Assembly (NCBI GenBank): GCA_022511065.1
Contig: JAFLSG010000002.1
Coordinates: 1-64,000 of the forward strand
Source: Prevotella sp.
Lineage (GTDB): Bacteria; Bacteroidota; Bacteroidia; Bacteroidales; Bacteroidaceae
Reading direction: 5' to 3'
Length of the DNA: 64,000 nucleotides
In this document: positions 28,195 to 35,803 of the stretch, piece after piece
How the letters are laid out: each line of letters opens with the position of its first letter
Numbering within the stretch: the first letter of the stretch is position 1
Program-made: the position numbers and the translations under genes
Notes under the pieces: generated by a model
Database searches by the model: none
What the model was told of the DNA's origin: nothing
What the model saw: the letters and a program-made list of their open reading frames with translations, nothing else

Positions 28195-28221
28195 TACCAT
28201 AAGAAACTTCCCCCTTCCTCG

Positions 28222-28368
28222 TCATGCCCCCGGCGTAGGCGGACATCGTTCCTCTTTTGCGCTGTCCGTCACTTCTTCCTGTGCATTAGCAGTGTCCGCT
28301 TGCTGATGACATGAACAGATTGTTACCACCAAACTCATGAAAATGGTACAAAACCCATGCTTACCCAT
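28222..28368 (-). CDS. small putative lipoprotein (48 aa)
   Basis: MGKHGFCTIFMSLVVTICSCHQQADTANAQEEVTDSAKEERCPPTPGA: hydrophobic stretch followed by lipobox-like Cys. Confidence 0.5.
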   Translation of the reverse strand: MGKHGFCTIFMSLVVTICSCHQQADTANAQEEVTDSAKEERCPPTPGA

Positions 28369-28441
28369 TGCTCTTTTTAACACCGAATTGTAAATGATAA
28401 AATTCATTTTGTCATTGCTCTTCAATAGAATTGCTTTACCG

Positions 28442-29017
28442 CTATTGGCAACAGTTGCAATGGCTTTGTGGATAGGTAAGACCAGAGGTGAGGAGTTCAA
28501 GTTGAAATCCCTCTTTGTACAATGTTGTTGCCAACCGCTCCCTCACAGCCATTTCAAAACTGTCCCTTTTGGAGATTATCTCCTCGGAAGTCAGTTTATT
28601 AATCTCGCTTCTGAACGTGTCTTTTACATACTCAAACACGATTCCGCCGATGACATCATACAGTGTTTCCTTCCTATACTTTCTAAAGATGGGAGCAGAT
28701 TGTCCCTCAATAATCTTCAGCGAGACACGGGCTTCAACGGTAAACGGCAATCCGTCTTTTGCAGGGATTTCAAATGCAGGGTAGTCCACGGTCTGCACAA
28801 ACGTGGGATATTCATAGACTGCTTGTGTAAGCGGATTAAACCATGTGACCCTGACCCAAGGAACAACTATTGACACATCATTGTATCCCTTATCAGAGCC
28901 ATAGAGATAAACCAAGATACCTTCATGTCCCGCCGTAATTCTTTTGCACGAACAGAATCCTAAACTTATTAATAACATTACCAATGTAATGGTAATCATT
29001 ATAAAATACTTTTTCAT
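28442..29017 (-). CDS. SPFH/Band-7-like lipoprotein, C-terminally short
   Basis: MKKYFIMITITLVMLLISLGFCSCKRITAGHEGILVYLYG...FTVEARVSLKIIEGQSAPIFRKYRKE...FRSEINKLTSEEIISKRDSFEMAVRERLATTLYKEGFQLELLTSGLTYPQ; the usual helical tail is missing. Confidence 0.7.
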   Translation of the reverse strand: MKKYFIMITITLVMLLISLGFCSCKRITAGHEGILVYLYGSDKGYNDVSIVVPWVRVTWFNPLTQAVYEYPTFVQTVDYPAFEIPAKDGLPFTVEARVSLKIIEGQSAPIFRKYRKETLYDVIGGIVFEYVKDTFRSEINKLTSEEIISKRDSFEMAVRERLATTLYKEGFQLELLTSGLTYPQSHCNCCQ

Positions 29018-29047
29018 AGGCTTTGGTTCATGCTCTTATCCTTTTTA

Positions 29048-30211
29048 TTATTCAATCTCTAGCCCAAATGTTTTTATCAAATTGTTTAGGACACAATTGT
29101 TTTTTAATTCTGCCATAATTTGCTCTTTGCTTTGTGGTTGGTCAGATGAAAAATGTACCATTGATTTATATTCATCTGGTAAGCATTCGGCAATAGTCAT
29201 GCGAAACATATTCCAACATTGAGAGTCGTCATACAGTTCTGCTTCATAAATATTTCGAATGACTTTTTTCTGTACCAAATCATCCCACACCGCATAATCT
29301 ATTAGTTCTTCAGCTAATCCTAACCTTCCCATGCACCAAAGAATTCGAGTCACCACATCGAAGTGTTTTGTAGATAAGTTGTCGTCCTTTGAATAGTACC
29401 ATGGTAATTGATTGACAGACGGGGCATCTTCCAATAGCAACCGTCCGTCAATTTTCTTTATGGGACTTGTTTGTTGGTAGTTAATATATCTCACAATTTG
29501 CTCATATAATATCTGGGTAGCCATTCCTTTTTCGCATTGACTGTTTGACAGCGCCAAAATAAATAGATATTCCACATCAGCACTTTCATCAAATAAAGAT
29601 GAAAATTTGCTTTTATCTATATGGAATAAAGGGTGATGTATTAGCTTGATACAAAGATGTGTGTAATTACTTTCTGAATCCAAGAATTTTAGATTTTCAT
29701 ACACATATTCCATTGGAAAATGCTTAATGATTACTAACTGGCAATCTTTTTCGTGATACAATTCCCATAGATATTTTACATCTTCATGAAAATATTTATC
29801 CCAATGCTTTCGTAAATACCAAAATGTTCTAATCCTATCACCTCTGCAACCATATAGGAATGCTTTCAGAATCTGTTTTTGAACATTATAAGGCTGTGTT
29901 TCAAACCTTTTCTTCAATTCTTTCCGAGCATAGATGACACGACCACTTTTTCTATTCGTGTATAGTCGCAATAGTGCAGAAATCGATTCCGTTTTGTGAG
30001 GGAGATATTTCTTTAGAGCTTTATCTATTTCCTTACGTAAATCATTCTCTATTTTCCATTTTGAGCTTCCTTGTTTAAGTTCTTTGTTCAATAACTTTAG
30101 TTCATCTTCATTCAAAGTATGCACCAAAGCCCTTAAAACACTTCTCTCACTAAAATACCTCTGAACTGATGGTTTCCAATAGTTTGAAAGTATGTATTCC
30201 AATGCACGCAT
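29048..30211 (-). CDS. hypothetical helical protein (387 aa)
   Basis: Long ORF in the AT-rich operon; no recognised family. Confidence 0.8.
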   Translation of the reverse strand: MRALEYILSNYWKPSVQRYFSERSVLRALVHTLNEDELKLLNKELKQGSSKWKIENDLRKEIDKALKKYLPHKTESISALLRLYTNRKSGRVIYARKELKKRFETQPYNVQKQILKAFLYGCRGDRIRTFWYLRKHWDKYFHEDVKYLWELYHEKDCQLVIIKHFPMEYVYENLKFLDSESNYTHLCIKLIHHPLFHIDKSKFSSLFDESADVEYLFILALSNSQCEKGMATQILYEQIVRYINYQQTSPIKKIDGRLLLEDAPSVNQLPWYYSKDDNLSTKHFDVVTRILWCMGRLGLAEELIDYAVWDDLVQKKVIRNIYEAELYDDSQCWNMFRMTIAECLPDEYKSMVHFSSDQPQSKEQIMAELKNNCVLNNLIKTFGLEIE

Positions 30212-30239
30212 GTGTTTCCTTGTTATTGGTTACTTATTT

Positions 30240-31160
30240 TTAATTCGAATTAACAATCTCGTCTTCTATTATCAAATCAAACGCATCAATAAGAGAATCT
30301 ATCTTACCCCCACTTGATTTCCTAATCTCATCCTGTGTTTTTTCTGTATTGTTTCTTAAATACAGATGTTTCTTTGGCAACAAGTATTTTCGTTTCTTAT
30401 TCCCACCTTTTTGTTTCAGGATCTCAACTCCTATGGTATCATGCAAATCTTGTCCTCGCTCATCACAACAAATATCAAATTGTTCGTAGTTGGTTAGACC
30501 GATAACAACATCTTCCCCACGAACATCATTTTGAAACAAATCACATAATGCAGGCTTTACTCTGTCTATCCCTTCACGCCAAGACCATGTGCAAGAGGTT
30601 GCAACCATAGGAATATTTAATTTCATGACAAGACTTTTCCATGATGTTAATATGACCTCATGCTTTTCAGAATACACAGGAACGATTTCATCAATAAAGA
30701 GTATTTGAATACCATTTGATGTAATCAACTCTTTAAGTCTATTTAGGAAATTCCCATCCCGACTTTCTATATTGACAACGTATAAGGGTGCTTCTTTCAA
30801 CAATTTAAAGTAATCTTTAATTGCATTCTGATATTCCTTCTTATCTAAAAGTGTATTGATATTATTAGTTTCTATTCCACAATAATATGCTGCCATACAC
30901 GAGAGAAAAATCCTTTTTGACATATTGCTTAAAACAAGTAGTGTCGGGATATGCAAATTAACTGCAATATGATTTATCTGCGAGATAACAAATGCAGACT
31001 TTCCACTATTCTCTGCTCCGCATATTGTTGTCATTGACCCCGGGTAATATCCGCCAATTGCCTTATCTAAAAACTGAAATCCTGTAGAAATTGGTTCTGC
31101 TTTTAGCCTAACAGCTCCTTTTATTACATCACTAATATGTTCCATTGCAGATTTCATCAA
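30240..31160 (-). CDS. orphan DnaB C-terminal / RadA-like P-loop ATPase
   Basis: ISTGFQFLDKAIGGYYPGSMTTICGAENSGKSAFVISQI (Walker A), GIQILFIDEIVPVY (Walker B); no DnaB N-terminal domain. Confidence 0.75.
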   Translation of the reverse strand: MMKSAMEHISDVIKGAVRLKAEPISTGFQFLDKAIGGYYPGSMTTICGAENSGKSAFVISQINHIAVNLHIPTLLVLSNMSKRIFLSCMAAYYCGIETNNINTLLDKKEYQNAIKDYFKLLKEAPLYVVNIESRDGNFLNRLKELITSNGIQILFIDEIVPVYSEKHEVILTSWKSLVMKLNIPMVATSCTWSWREGIDRVKPALCDLFQNDVRGEDVVIGLTNYEQFDICCDERGQDLHDTIGVEILKQKGGNKKRKYLLPKKHLYLRNNTEKTQDEIRKSSGGKIDSLIDAFDLIIEDEIVNSN

Positions 31161-31197
31161 AAGGTTTCTTGTTCATCATTTGTATTACACAACTTCT

Positions 31198-31587
31198 TTA
31201 TGGGCGCAGTTTATCCTTAATATCAAGAGATAAAAGGTGGCTTACATCGTTGTAGGCTTGATTGCCTTCCATAATGCCATCGATATATACTTGCTGCCGT
31301 TCTGATAATTGGTTTGTCTCTTTCACAATTTTAGATGTAGCAATCATGATTGCTTCATTAAGAGTTATCCGCCCCAACATTTGATAATCGGGAATGGAAA
31401 TCTTTGCATACAAGGACCAATTCCATTTTTCAAGAGAATCTGCAACCCCAAATTTATAAATCCAAGCAGCTTTATATAGACAATCTATGTCATAATTCAA
31501 TTGATAAAGACGTAAATTGTCTAATATCTCCTTCAATGACTTCGCCAATCGATTAAAGGCAAAACCAGCTTTTAATACTCGTAACAT
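31198..31587 (-). CDS. hypothetical protein (129 aa)
   Basis: ORF spaced 37 bp from the ATPase gene, same strand. Confidence 0.7.
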   Translation of the reverse strand: MLRVLKAGFAFNRLAKSLKEILDNLRLYQLNYDIDCLYKAAWIYKFGVADSLEKWNWSLYAKISIPDYQMLGRITLNEAIMIATSKIVKETNQLSERQQVYIDGIMEGNQAYNDVSHLLSLDIKDKLRP

Positions 31588-31588
31588 A

Positions 31589-31990
31589 TTATTGGTATCT
31601 TTCCATTAATGATTGCATCTTTTTATTTATATCATCATTCATTTTCATGAGCATGTGCTCTTGATTCATTGATTCTGGAAACTGCCATTCCATATTTATG
31701 TTACCCAACAAAGGATTGTTACTTACTTTCATTTGGATAGTAACCGTCCCAAAAGTAGCTTGTATATTAAATATCTGTGAGCCGGCAACGCCAGAAATGC
31801 CAACGGAAACGAAAGTATTAGTTTCTTGAAATATTTTATTTCTTGGGTCTGCTGCTAAGAGTGAATCAACAAGAACCTTGTATTTCTTACGCACACCTCC
31901 TTCTGATTTCATTTTGTCAGACTGTTGCATGCTGTCAAATAGGAATTTGCCAACAATCAAAATGATGACAAGAATTATAAATGTAACCAT
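31589..31990 (-). CDS. single-TM N-terminally anchored hypothetical protein
   Basis: MVTFIILVIILIVGKFLFDSMQQSDK...; 1-bp spacing to the next gene. Confidence 0.7.
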   Translation of the reverse strand: MVTFIILVIILIVGKFLFDSMQQSDKMKSEGGVRKKYKVLVDSLLAADPRNKIFQETNTFVSVGISGVAGSQIFNIQATFGTVTIQMKVSNNPLLGNINMEWQFPESMNQEHMLMKMNDDINKKMQSLMERYQ

Positions 31991-31992
31991 CT

Positions 31993-32358
31993 TTAGTTTA
32001 CTTTCCCTATTTCATAAATAATATGATTTGGCATCTCGTCTCGCTTAAAGTGCCACTCTTTCACTACGGAAGAATAGCGCACGAATGCAATTGCTACACC
32101 ATCGCTGAAATTGCTAATGGCATAGTATTCGTTTCCGTCTTTTAAGCCTATCTTAATCATATCCGCCCGTTCGAATAGTATTTGATAATTTGGCTTGTTC
32201 TCAACAAATGTAATAACATCTTGATAATGCTCTCTTAAAAAGTTGGCACGTCCAGGGGTGGATAGTGCTTTCTTTTCATGTTCATCTATTTTATTAAAGA
32301 TAAAGTTCTTAATACAAAGAAGTATAATGGCTGCAATAATTAATATAATCCAATTCAT
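31993..32358 (-). CDS. single-TM N-terminally anchored hypothetical protein
   Basis: MNWIILIIAAIILLCIKNFIFNKIDEHEKK...; 2-bp spacing to the next gene. Confidence 0.7.
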   Translation of the reverse strand: MNWIILIIAAIILLCIKNFIFNKIDEHEKKALSTPGRANFLREHYQDVITFVENKPNYQILFERADMIKIGLKDGNEYYAISNFSDGVAIAFVRYSSVVKEWHFKRDEMPNHIIYEIGKVN

Positions 32359-32384
32359 AATAGTGACTCTTCTATATATAGTTT

Positions 32385-32813
32385 TTAAAACAAATTCTTA
32401 ACGAGATACCAGGGAAAGAGCAATAATGCTATAATGCACCCACTGGATGAATGTCTCCTCATTCCACCACGAGTGTTTACACAATTCTGACAAATCTGAA
32501 AATGATAATCAGGGTCATAACCACTGGTAAATCTTCCAGGATTCCCATAAATAGAAGCACCGCACATCGGACATCTACCATTGTTCAATAAACCGAGTTT
32601 TTTAAGATACGATATTGCACAACTGTCTTCTATTGTTCCTAAAACAAATAATTTAGGCTCATTTCCAGCTGAATACTGACCTGTTTTTGTCCATCGGCCT
32701 ACTTCTTTATTAAATTCTTTGGCCTTAAAGCCCCCATCATTTAATTCTTTAGCCATGACTTCATTCCATTGTTGCCATGACATCTTTCCAATTTCTTCTG
32801 TTGTGTACTTCAT
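32385..32813 (-). CDS. Zn-ribbon-containing hypothetical protein with C-terminal hydrophobic segment
   Basis: CPMCGASIYGNPGRFTSGYDPDYHFQICQNC paired CxxC motifs; C-terminal IIALLLFPWYLVKNLF. Confidence 0.75.
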   Translation of the reverse strand: MKYTTEEIGKMSWQQWNEVMAKELNDGGFKAKEFNKEVGRWTKTGQYSAGNEPKLFVLGTIEDSCAISYLKKLGLLNNGRCPMCGASIYGNPGRFTSGYDPDYHFQICQNCVNTRGGMRRHSSSGCIIALLLFPWYLVKNLF

Positions 32814-32852
32814 ACTAATACTAATTTAAAATGTAATTTTTAGAAAGTTCTA

Positions 32853-33518
32853 TTAGTACCCCATAACCTTATCAACGATTTCATTAGAAAAACTTATTCT
32901 TAAGATATTGGGAGTATCGTCGTTCATTGCATTAAAAGTCCAATTCTTGCCGTTATTGGATGATACAGCCAACGTAAGATCTGGTGTAGTGTGAAGTTGG
33001 AGATTATCATTGACCATATTGGAAACAATCTCAAAGACATAAAAAATATTTTCTCCATACGTTACTTTTCTGATAAGTCGGCTAACCACAATGTTTATTT
33101 CTATGCCGTGATTTTCAAAGCGTTTTACTTGCTCAATTGCATGCATGGAAAACTCCTCAAACAGTTTACGCATAACTCCATCATTACTTTCGCCGGGATA
33201 ATATTCCTTGAAATACTTTGCTGCATCTGGGTATTGATAGTGAATGGCATTGTCTATGTCACCCCGTAAAAGAGCCAGATTATACGACCGAAACTGACTG
33301 AGCATGTTCTCTTCTTCTTTGTTATGTCCCTTACATTCCATAACTTTCCCCAAAGTAAAACCATCAGGAATCTTTTTGTCAGTTATGCACTCAATGACCT
33401 GTATAGAGTCGTTGAACTCCTCTACCATTACATCTGACTTCGTGTTTGCATTCCCACATCCAATGAGAAAAGGGAAGAGAATCGCCCAAATAAAGGCAAA
33501 GCATTTTACTGTTTTCAT
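32853..33518 (-). CDS. putative lipoprotein
   Basis: MKTVKCFAFIWAILFPFLIGCGNANTK signal II peptide; internal ATG preferred over the ORF start at 33545. Confidence 0.75.
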   Translation of the reverse strand: MKTVKCFAFIWAILFPFLIGCGNANTKSDVMVEEFNDSIQVIECITDKKIPDGFTLGKVMECKGHNKEEENMLSQFRSYNLALLRGDIDNAIHYQYPDAAKYFKEYYPGESNDGVMRKLFEEFSMHAIEQVKRFENHGIEINIVVSRLIRKVTYGENIFYVFEIVSNMVNDNLQLHTTPDLTLAVSSNNGKNWTFNAMNDDTPNILRISFSNEIVDKVMGY

Positions 33519-33589
33519 ATTCTGTTGGTTATTACTTCGCTTCATTTTAATGGTGAGTAAGCACCAACTTATACAAAGAAAGCGCAGAC

Positions 33590-33757
33590 CCTAATCCATA
33601 CTCCTCTCAGGCCTTGCACTGCCTCATACATCCTATGGAAGGAACCTACGCTGTTGCGTATGCTCCACGGATGTATGAAATGCTCTTAATTCTTTTTCGA
33701 GGTGCAAGTTCGAGAGGAATCTGAGCAAATAAAATGTTTGTGCCCTATGAAAGGAAC
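33590..33757 (-). ncRNA. Highly structured RNA (6S-like long hairpin with central bubble, or long structured 5' leader)
   Basis: Nested stems cctctc/gagagg (33603-08/33712-17), cttgcac/gtgcaag (33613-19/33702-08), catacatcc/ggatgtatg (33625-33/33669-77), tacgc/gcgta (33647-51/33656-60); minus-strand promoter TTTG-N19-TAATTTTG directly upstream. Confidence 0.6.
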
Positions 33758-33763
33758 ACGATG

Positions 33764-33794
33764 CAAAATTACGAAAAAATATTGTATCACCAAA
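33764..33794 (-). promoter_or_regulatory. Bacteroidetes-type promoter TTTG-N19-TAATTTTG
   Basis: Minus strand: TTTG (33794-33791), 19-nt spacer, TAATTTTG (33771-33764). Confidence 0.8.
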
Positions 33795-33853
33795 TTTTCA
33801 TCAATTTTTTCATGTCGTGGTATTAACTTTTTATGGGGGCTATGTCATTTTAA

Positions 33854-33995
33854 GTTTGACTTGCTATTATATTCTGCGTGACCTACAGTCATTTTTCGTC
33901 CGACTTGCAGTCATATTTCAGTGAAAAATGATAGCAAGTCAAACAAAAAATAGCTTAAAGTCAAATGAAAAATGGCTGCAAGTCAAAGAGAAAAT
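33854..33995. repeat. Cluster of inverted/direct gacttgcagtcatttttc-like repeats
   Basis: gtttgacttgctat (33854-67) is the exact reverse complement of atagcaagtcaaac (33931-44); further degenerate copies include gacttgcagtcat, atggctgcaagtcaaa and cagtcatttttc. Confidence 0.85.
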
Positions 33996-34000
33996 GACCC

Positions 34001-34025
34001 TATGCGCGTGCGTATGTGCGCGTGT
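34001..34025. other. 25-nt perfectly alternating purine/pyrimidine tract (Z-DNA-prone)
   Basis: tatgcgcgtgcgtatgtgcgcgtgt. Confidence 0.85.
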
Positions 34026-34251
34026 TCATTTATTATTTATATGCAGAGGCAAGGAAATATGTCCATGAGCCGTCAATGGAATGGGGGAGTTAAGGATTTG
34101 AATTAGAAACCCTAAGGATTTGACTTATGCTATTGCAGGGGTGATTTTTTCTTTGTACCTTTGTATCACCAAAGATAAATTTTGGTTTATATATTTTTTA
34201 GACTTAATAACTTTAGGTGTGCTATGCCCGCCTTTATTACTAAATTAAACT

Positions 34252-34788
34252 ATGATACACAATGGTAAAAAAACGATGAGATTAAAGGACATCGTCAGGT
34301 ATGACGATGTGGAGACGGGACGGTTGGAGCTGATTGTCGGGAGTGTGACTCACTGTTGGAAGGTGGTGTGGCTTTCCAACTTGCGCTGCAACATTCGTGG
34401 CAGGAGCTGCCTTCCGTATGGAGAATTGCCACTCTCCATCCGTTCCAACGAGCAGTGGATTGACTGCCCGATGCTTCGCTTCAACAGCCGAATCTGTATG
34501 TGGCTTATTCCTTTGAATACTTCAAAGTGGACGGATTTCGGCTTGGATATGTATTTGTGTGACGATGGCGATGAGCTTGCCCCGCTTTCCACGGAGGAGT
34601 ATAAGCAGTTCGTGGAGTGTGTGCGCAGCAATCGCGTCACAGGTATTTCAGTCGAGCCTTTCCGCCAGACGGTTTCAAGCGACTACTTGAATCACGAAGG
34701 CGGGGAAAGTTTCGATGCAGAACTCTCAATGAATCTTCAGTCATTGAAGAAAATGATTAAGAAAATGATTGAGGAGGAGTCTATTTAA
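34252..34788 (+). CDS. hypothetical protein (178 aa; start may be 34276)
   Basis: ORF upstream of two HU-like genes. Confidence 0.65.
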   Translation: MIHNGKKTMRLKDIVRYDDVETGRLELIVGSVTHCWKVVWLSNLRCNIRGRSCLPYGELPLSIRSNEQWIDCPMLRFNSRICMWLIPLNTSKWTDFGLDMYLCDDGDELAPLSTEEYKQFVECVRSNRVTGISVEPFRQTVSSDYLNHEGGESFDAELSMNLQSLKKMIKKMIEEESI

Positions 34789-34816
34789 TATTGGTATTTT
34801 TTAATCACTTAAAATT

Positions 34817-35299
34817 ATGTCTAAAATTACAATTAATGTTATGCAGAACAATAACCAGTATTCTTCTGCATACAAAAAGTTTTATGGAAGAGTTCAGCAT
34901 GGCGAGACGATTAGTTCGAAGACACTATGCGCCCATGCAGCGAAGGACTCGGGTATAGAGGAGTCTTCAATCTCCTTGGTGTTTGATGCTTTCCTAAAGC
35001 AGTTTGAGGAGCAGCTTTGCGGAGGTCACCCCATCAAAGTGGACAATCTCGGGACATTCAAAGTTGGCATCCATTCCAGTGGCATCGGAGTAAACGACGT
35101 GAAGAAATCGCACCCAGAGTTTGACCCAGAGAAGGATGATATACAAAAGTATGTGTCCGCCAAACAAGTGAAGAGTGCACACCTGCTCTTCACGCCCTGC
35201 GAGGAGATTAAGGAGCTGCTTCGTGCGGTGAAGTTTGAGACCGACAAGTCGCATTGGGAGCAAGCAACAAAGGATGAAGAAGAGGAGGATATACCATGA
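34817..35299 (+). CDS. HU-like DNA-binding protein
   Basis: SSAYKKFYGRVQHGETISSKTLCAHAAKDSGIEESSISLVFDAFLKQFEEQLCGGHPIKVDNLGTFKVGIHSSG. Confidence 0.85.
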   Translation: MSKITINVMQNNNQYSSAYKKFYGRVQHGETISSKTLCAHAAKDSGIEESSISLVFDAFLKQFEEQLCGGHPIKVDNLGTFKVGIHSSGIGVNDVKKSHPEFDPEKDDIQKYVSAKQVKSAHLLFTPCEEIKELLRAVKFETDKSHWEQATKDEEEEDIP

Positions 35300-35327
35300 A
35301 TGTTAATTTATTAAATAATAAAAAAGT

Positions 35328-35741
35328 ATGGATAGTAGAATTCGTGTAACCCCGTGGCAGAATCAGAATGATTTTACCACAGCATTCGGGAAGTGGTTTG
35401 TAAAGGTGCTCTACGACAAACCCTTCGACATGACGGAGTTGGTAGCCCATATCGCAAAGGATTCGGGCGTGGAGAGAGGCATGGTGACAGCTTGCCTACA
35501 AGCCATCATCAAGCAGATTGGGGAGTTGCTGTGCAACGGGCATCCCATCCGCGTGCCCCATCTCGGATTACTGAAGTTGGGCGTGGCGTCTGCCGGTGCG
35601 CAGACTTTGGAGGAGTTCAATGCAAGGATTCACATCAAGAACCTCTATGTAAACCTTGTTCCGGACAAGGAAATCAAGAAGGCGATTGCGAATGTGAACT
35701 TTGTGAAGTACATTCCGAAGAGGAGGATACGCATAGAGTGA
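35328..35741 (+). CDS. HU-like DNA-binding protein
   Basis: TTAFGKWFVKVLYDKPFDMTELVAHIAKDSGVERGMVTACLQAIIKQIGELLCNGHPIRVPHLGLLKLGVASAG. Confidence 0.85.
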   Translation: MDSRIRVTPWQNQNDFTTAFGKWFVKVLYDKPFDMTELVAHIAKDSGVERGMVTACLQAIIKQIGELLCNGHPIRVPHLGLLKLGVASAGAQTLEEFNARIHIKNLYVNLVPDKEIKKAIANVNFVKYIPKRRIRIE

Positions 35742-35756
35742 TGATCACTGCATTCA

Positions 35757-35786
35757 AAAAGAGGGGAGTTTTCACTCCCCTCTTTT
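35757..35786. terminator. Bidirectional terminator between convergent genes
   Basis: aaaagaggggag ttttca ctcccctctttt, 12-bp perfect stem with A/T flanks. Confidence 0.9.
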
Positions 35787-35803
35787 CTTTCTGTTCGGTA
35801 GAT

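Follow-up and report, generated by a model that had tools for sequence, protein, structure and literature searches.

In the first 64,000 nucleotides (nt) of contig JAFLSG010000002.1 of a Prevotella sp. (GenBank assembly GCA_022511065.1, 2.65 Mb; positions 1-64000, here called the window), a structured leader RNA of 190 nt was found between a promoter and an eight-gene operon, A to H, on the minus strand. The leader (33576-33766, minus strand) is very likely a genuine structured RNA absent from Rfam and a candidate for a new cis-regulatory class. It is the strongest novelty of the locus. The operon behind it is real and mosaic. An original prediction, made from the letters of the window, had described the gene block and overlooked the promoter and structured leader (33576-33794) as well as the insertion setting of the block.

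The promoter (33764-33794, minus strand) is of the Bacteroidetes type with the form TTTG-N19-TAATTTTG. Nine exact matches to this type were found in the window compared to 1.1 expected by chance, and only one of them is located in the operon region. In 46 of the 51 homologous leaders, the 5′ end carries the sequence TAnnTTTG, and the first ~3 nt of the leader overlap the promoter box. A helix 1 (TTGCA:TGCGC) is doubted as an RNA helix, because the promoter box makes up its 5′ strand. The ~240 nt following the promoter fold far better than shuffled sequences (z = -5.2).

In the columns of alignment A11, the helices of the leader are P2 (10-17/52-58), P3 (89-96/248-255), P5 (100-104/235-239), P6 (105-108/226-229), P7 (162-167/217-222) and P8 (183-187/196-200), accompanied by a pseudoknot TGCTC:GAGCA and a helix CCATA:TATGG. 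Using RNAalifold on an 18-sequence MAFFT alignment, compensatory changes were found in 25 of 39 pairs. The 51-member alignment showed 97.2% paired cells, changes on both sides in 31 of 39 pairs and 471 double-change cells, compared to 131 in shuffles, and slid controls were 26-57% paired; having been fitted to the model, the 51-member alignment leans towards structure, a bias of which the MAFFT alignment is free. The further helices of the leader, which were counted separately, are paired in 95.9% of the cells.

An alternative helix of 8 base pairs (bp), GCGYAGRY:GTCTGCGC, has the 3′ arm of P8 in common with that helix and precedes a conserved U-rich tract. It is 97% paired, with a change on both sides in five of its eight pairs. 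The window copy can form it as a terminator-like hairpin of -26.8 kcal/mol ending in UUUCUU. Many leaders have a further inverted pair GTTAGTGCT...AGTATTAAC between the U-tract and the ATG (e.g., 33520-33575 in the window), which is possibly an additional regulatory hairpin.

Homologues and gene order were surveyed in samples of 200 Prevotella genomes. A BLAST search of 200 genomes yielded relatives of the leader in 53 other than the window's own, which brings the number to 54; some of the matches are short and cover the promoter only. With a covariance model, the leader was matched at least 107 times, in 50 of the 166 family genomes and 11 of the 30 genera, including at least five times in the window's genome; these counts are lower bounds, with 15 candidates scored per genome. 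No matches were found in plasmid or phage collections. The comparison of the window copy with Rfam 15 gave nothing above the curated thresholds (best E-value 1.4, chance matches), and the loci of 15 other members gave an unrelated thiamine pyrophosphate (TPP) riboswitch and a chance microRNA, neither of which lies on the element. The leader was therefore rejected as a known riboswitch. Its novelty is judged against Rfam 15; Fremin and Bhatt (2021; PMC8040213) report 16,482 models of putative structured RNAs in human microbiomes, and an unnamed candidate among them may overlap with the leader.

The position of the leader relative to the downstream gene is consistent. In the first set, an open reading frame (ORF) starting with ATG follows 25-130 nt 3′ of the leader in 40 of 51 copies, mostly at 60-90 nt, and 18 of 20 held-out copies have such an ORF at 39-110 nt. 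One held-out copy without an ORF (L229) is the same as L197 of the first set, leaving 70 distinct copies, 58 of them with an ATG ORF 25-130 nt downstream. The start of gene A at 33518 is favored over 33545, since it is 57 nt from the leader end and thus near the modal spacing of the family. Exported-like proteins, called by a simple hydrophobicity rule, are encoded by 47 of these 58 ORFs (first set 33/40, P = 5e-11; held-out 14/18, P = 5e-5) compared to 162 of 544 (30%) in the background; picking a signal-peptide-like start among alternatives inflates the exported count somewhat, and the background was likewise allowed up to three starts.

Both a covarying structure and a consistent position upstream of ORFs, as required of a cis-regulatory structured RNA, were thus found. 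Judged from sequence, the leader is probably a cis-regulatory RNA and possibly a terminator switch, an attenuator or a riboswitch-like element. An attenuator is proposed because the alternative helix takes up the P8 3′ arm, precedes the U-tract and can form the hairpin of the window copy. The wider proposal is that Prevotella and related genera possess a new class of switch-type RNA, which would act by transcription attenuation on a large number of exported proteins and lipoproteins in each cell, with the inserted operon among its targets, in response to a shared cue and not to a pathway metabolite; we rate it slightly below an even chance. Prevotella is dominant in the rumen and in many human guts, and to our knowledge few cis-regulatory RNAs have been described for this genus. 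A multi-copy leader class across eleven genera would define a regulon of surface proteins that is open to direct testing.

The ORF check of the window confirmed eight minus-strand ORFs at 33518-28442. The intergenic gaps from A to H are 39, 26, 2, 1, 37, 28 and 30 bp. The guanine-cytosine (GC) content is 33-36% across 29000-33500, whereas most of the flanking sequence has 44-56%. Genes A to H are a probable transcription unit, predicted to depend on the single Bacteroidetes-type promoter upstream of A. Searches of Pfam, NCBIfam, PHROGs and PADLOC matched no described system for genes A to I, and the PADLOC 2.0 system protein models gave no match at E ≤ 0.1 for the nine proteins. No phage genes were found near the operon, and no nuclease, ADP-ribosyltransferase, pore or NADase domains within it. 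The original prediction of a close-packed, low-GC and undescribed single operon with no phage genes nearby was borne out in these respects.

The operon is located on an insertion of ~7.6 kb (28195-35803), which comprises A to I, a gene for a 178-amino acid (aa) protein and two genes in which HU-HIG domains were identified. Its borders are an aminotransferase gene (window 26872) and a gene for a 165-aa exported protein (window 35804). The insertion is absent from six related Prevotella. At four of the corresponding loci (L149, L150, L152, L161), the aminotransferase gene adjoins a gene for a 140-179-aa exported protein with gaps of 10-55 bp, and at the other two (L155, L158) the region lacks the operon and contains three different small genes. 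The rpoD-like gene that adjoins the site in the relatives was not found there in the window, so that a simple two-state insertion does not describe the site. It is shown or strongly implied that the block is a single-promoter operon on this insertion, pieced together from several mobile parts.

As read from sequence comparison, the operon combines a conserved B-C-D-E module, an F ATPase family and a G alpha-solenoid family, its genes being drawn from a pool found in rumen Prevotella and then inserted into the chromosome. The order B-C-D-E is retained at L055, C-D-E at L060 and B-D at L057 and L058, and the full module order elsewhere is found at 21-74% identity. Conservation of the whole operon was rejected, as its full order was found in no other genome surveyed; the conserved gene order considered in the original prediction holds for the module and not for all eight genes.

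Gene B (32385-32813) encodes a 142-aa protein with a Zn-ribbon (CxxC...CxxC) and a hydrophobic anchor at the C-terminus. Its cysteines are conserved in a 7-sequence alignment, and the Zn-ribbon, one of three folds named beforehand, scores below every Pfam threshold. Of 200 other Prevotella genomes, six carry homologues, two of these at 74-75%, and none was found in IMG/VR. Gene C (31993-32358, 121 aa) has an N-terminal transmembrane segment and a small domain, with homologues at L054, L055 and L060. The comparison of C with D (hhalign probability 46%, E = 2e-4) makes C a probable diverged paralogue of D. Gene D (31589-31990, 133 aa) encodes an N-terminal transmembrane helix, 28 residues long in the AlphaFold2 model, and a five-strand alpha/beta domain (predicted local distance difference test, pLDDT, 82.7); a PDB fold search gave no significant match. 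Its homologues are located at L055, L057, L058 and L060. Gene E (31198-31587, 129 aa) is predicted to encode a soluble protein; homologues occur only downstream of C-D (L055 and L060), and a relationship to G was rejected.

Gene F (30240-31160) encodes a 306-aa ATPase consisting of the DnaB C-terminal domain without the N-domain. The Pfam model DnaB_C was matched with an E-value of 2.4e-14; of the earlier label "DnaB/RadA-like", the DnaB part therefore stands and the RadA part does not. In an alignment with full-length Prevotella DnaB, a RecA-like C-domain with Walker A (GxENxGK[ST]) was retained, whereas the SLEMS Glu, the catalytic Glu of DnaB, is substituted and the Arg finger KHR/KxR is changed to KxK. 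The Walker B of the family is mostly DE/DD and not DY. Because the catalytic Glu, the Arg finger and the N-domain of a DnaB helicase are gone, F is read as probably an ATP-binding non-helicase, and we infer that it may act as an ATP-binding assembly or sensor. The F proteins form a single clade with long branches, separate from DnaB and from other orphan DnaB-like proteins (Shimodaira-Hasegawa approximate likelihood ratio test, SH-aLRT, 99). Those other orphans (~290-360 aa; L107, L111, L122, L123, L124, L125) have an altered Walker A (GKEE, GIEE, GRLS) and are probably inactive DnaB descendants; the orphan DnaB-like proteins of L107 and L108 are encoded near genes of the MTDYEY type, described below.

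Orthologues of F were found in ~10 other Prevotella loci without B to E. Carriers with names are uncultured Prevotella or Prevotellaceae, many of them from ruminants. The closest F (L061; 78% protein and 83% DNA identity) has a NERD-UvrD gene on one side and AbiEi-like and AbiEii-like genes, as a pair, on the other, and F alone is common to that locus and the window. F as a plasmid gene was rejected, with only DnaB-level matches among the records listed. The operon illustrates the recruitment of DnaB C-domains outside replication and their shuffling with solenoid and membrane genes.

Gene G (29048-30211) encodes a 387-aa alpha-solenoid protein. The AlphaFold2 model has a pLDDT of 77.7, with the core mostly above 90, and a PDB fold search gave nothing at E < 0.2. 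The core (73-245) is common to a Prevotella family that includes "MTDYEY" proteins of 140-190 aa, and the comparison of G with this short family gave 91% in hhalign. The 200 genomes contain ~25 full-length and at least 16 short homologues. None was found in the phage collection and only one in the viral contigs of IMG/VR. A phage origin of the block was rejected, as no phage gene lies in it and the searches for G and B gave only this one viral homologue. The homologue lies at a contig end (L163) together with A1S_2505 protein, endolysin-like, ADP-ribosylglycohydrolase-like and PP2C-like genes; the contig is either a phage carrying genes of the pool or a piece of host DNA.

The pool loci in which F, G and B/D are found repeatedly contain PIF1, ADP-ribosylglycohydrolase, DarT, A1S_2505/DUF1810 and a second DnaB clade, and also DUF6939 (NADAR-related), YhcG nuclease, TerB-like and MotB-like genes. 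Several genes of the operon are therefore accompanied elsewhere by genes of the conflict type. G-family genes were found within 6 kb of B/D at 3 of 8 loci (P ~3e-8) and within 6 kb of F at 2 of 12 loci (P ~5e-5), both above chance. None of the other copies of F, G or B-D searched had the leader alongside; the window copy is the only one among the pool loci searched, and the leader was rejected as a hallmark of the pool.

Several arrangements were observed in the pool. A recurrent island consists of a 182-aa gene, a 168-aa gene, a PIF1 helicase, a 192-aa gene, A1S_2505/DUF1810 and an MTDYEY protein, and also DnaB, WYL, G-family and ADP-ribosylglycohydrolase genes, in varying subsets (L051, L062, L131 and L114, with a second DnaB; also L048, L108, L110, L113 and L115). 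The island DnaB proteins of L051, L062, L114 and L131 form their own subclade (SH-aLRT 98). At L048:9087-13110, a MotB/OmpA-like membrane protein gene and two large neighbors are located beside NADAR-related, A1S_2505 and G-family genes, a set that resembles, by analogy, a Zorya-type membrane pair. An F gene and a G-family gene (L043:152-2435, L052:8977-11296) are each located immediately 5′ of an FtsZ-like gene, which suggests a shared insertion site. A single row of genes at L045:3799-9788 comprises DUF6939 (NADAR-related), YhcG nuclease, DarT, PP2C-like and A1S_2505/DUF1810 genes together with a short homologue of F.

Gene A (32853-33518) encodes a 221-aa lipoprotein with a lipobox-like LIGC. 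It had no family match in Pfam, NCBIfam, PHROGs or PADLOC and no homologue at E ≤ 1e-3 in the 200 sampled Prevotella genomes. Gene H (28442-29017) encodes a 191-aa lipoprotein whose SPFH fold, recognized before, was confirmed by Pfam Band_7 (E = 2.4e-15; 57.5 bits compared to a curated cut-off of 23.6), and PHROG 200 (lipoprotein) was matched at 1e-27. Relatives were found in 14 of 250 family genomes, and the four examined have no pool genes alongside. The further small lipoprotein gene proposed at the end of the block, ORF I (28222-28368, minus strand, 48 aa, lipoprotein-like), is present as an open frame; its membership is doubtful, given a 73-bp gap and no family match.

Taken together, we propose, at roughly even confidence, a mosaic inserted single-promoter operon with an attenuator or riboswitch-like leader and a membrane-linked protein assembly that includes a non-helicase F. 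Transcription would start just past the promoter and produce the leader first, which would be a cis-acting attenuator of transcription or a riboswitch-like switch. One of its states would have P3/P5/P7/P8 formed and let RNA polymerase read through. In the other, the P8 3′ arm would pair with GTCTGCGC, and transcription would end ahead of gene A at this GC-rich helix and the UUUCUU behind it. The proteins would form an inner-membrane-linked assembly anchored by B, C and D, with the lipoproteins A and H, a helical scaffold provided by G and, in F, an ATP-binding RecA-fold ring or sensor and not a helicase. A role in phage or plasmid conflict, proposed because the genes are shared with the pool, is the least certain step and rather doubtful. 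Going by genomic company, the operon could have an envelope-stress or defence role.

Several observations weigh against this explanation. The covariation of the alternative helix is modest, mostly one to five sequences per pair, because the helix is highly conserved, and it could instead be a pseudoknot within the same fold. The genes downstream of the leader have export in common and no pathway, an unusual pattern for a metabolite riboswitch, and since the leader is not beside the other searched copies of F, G and B-D, it tells nothing about the function of the proteins. The loss of catalytic residues in F depends on the reading of an alignment, the proximity of G to B/D or F may only mirror general island clustering, and the operon holds none of the ADP-ribose genes of the pool. 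Alternatively, the leader could be a free small RNA acting in trans and ending at the U-tract, with the ORF reached by read-through. Its own promoter, several copies per genome and terminator-like 3′ end would fit, but the fixed strand, the narrow spacing to the ATG ORF and the enrichment of exported proteins argue for cis action, and the copies precede unrelated genes, so that we consider a free RNA unlikely. Still less probable is a promoter-spreading mobile DNA element (repeat or recombination site) whose hairpins would serve DNA mobility and not RNA control. The leader is multi-copy, sequence-divergent and located beside fast-turnover genes, and folding of single-stranded DNA would likewise yield compensatory changes. 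However, no recombinase was recognized beside the copies with listed neighbors, no systematic recombinase search having been made; the conserved U-tract and the start-codon spacing suit an RNA function, and the plasmid and phage collections gave no match.

For the operon itself, phage or plasmid defence, with F and G sensing invading DNA and the membrane proteins B to D as effectors, is a possibility we hold only tentatively. The insertion is recent, DarT, NADAR, YhcG nuclease and ADP-ribosylglycohydrolase belong to the pool, and the F of L061 lies between its NERD-UvrD gene and Abi-like pair; against this stand the missing PADLOC match, the lack of the domains named above (nuclease, ADP-ribosyltransferase, pore, NADase) and the single G homologue in viral contigs. 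A neutral, decaying set of horizontally gained genes without joint function would explain the short H, the occurrence of A here only, the unique full order and the low GC. This is improbable in our view, as none of the eight closely spaced ORFs is broken, a single conserved promoter-leader precedes them all and the B-C-D-E order is kept elsewhere at 21-74% identity.

The leader is similar to terminator-platform riboswitches and attenuators such as TPP (RF00059) in its 5′ position, its complex conserved pseudoknotted fold and an alternative helix preceding a U-tract. It differs from them in having no Rfam 15 match and in targets that share export and not a metabolic pathway. F is significantly related to the replicative helicase DnaB (PF03796), with Walker A and the fold and length of the C-domain in common, and differs in the missing N-terminal domain, SLEMS Glu and KxR Arg finger, in a Walker B that is usually DE/DD and in a clade apart from the sampled DnaB set. 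H matches the SPFH/Band_7 lipoproteins of PHROG 200 over most of its length and stops at 191 aa, whereas most relatives are open frames of ~270-324 aa. The F and G families recur in the Prevotella islands with DarT, NADAR, ADP-ribosylglycohydrolase, A1S_2505 and a second DnaB, from which the operon of the window differs by the absence of ADP-ribose genes and the addition of B to E, A and H.

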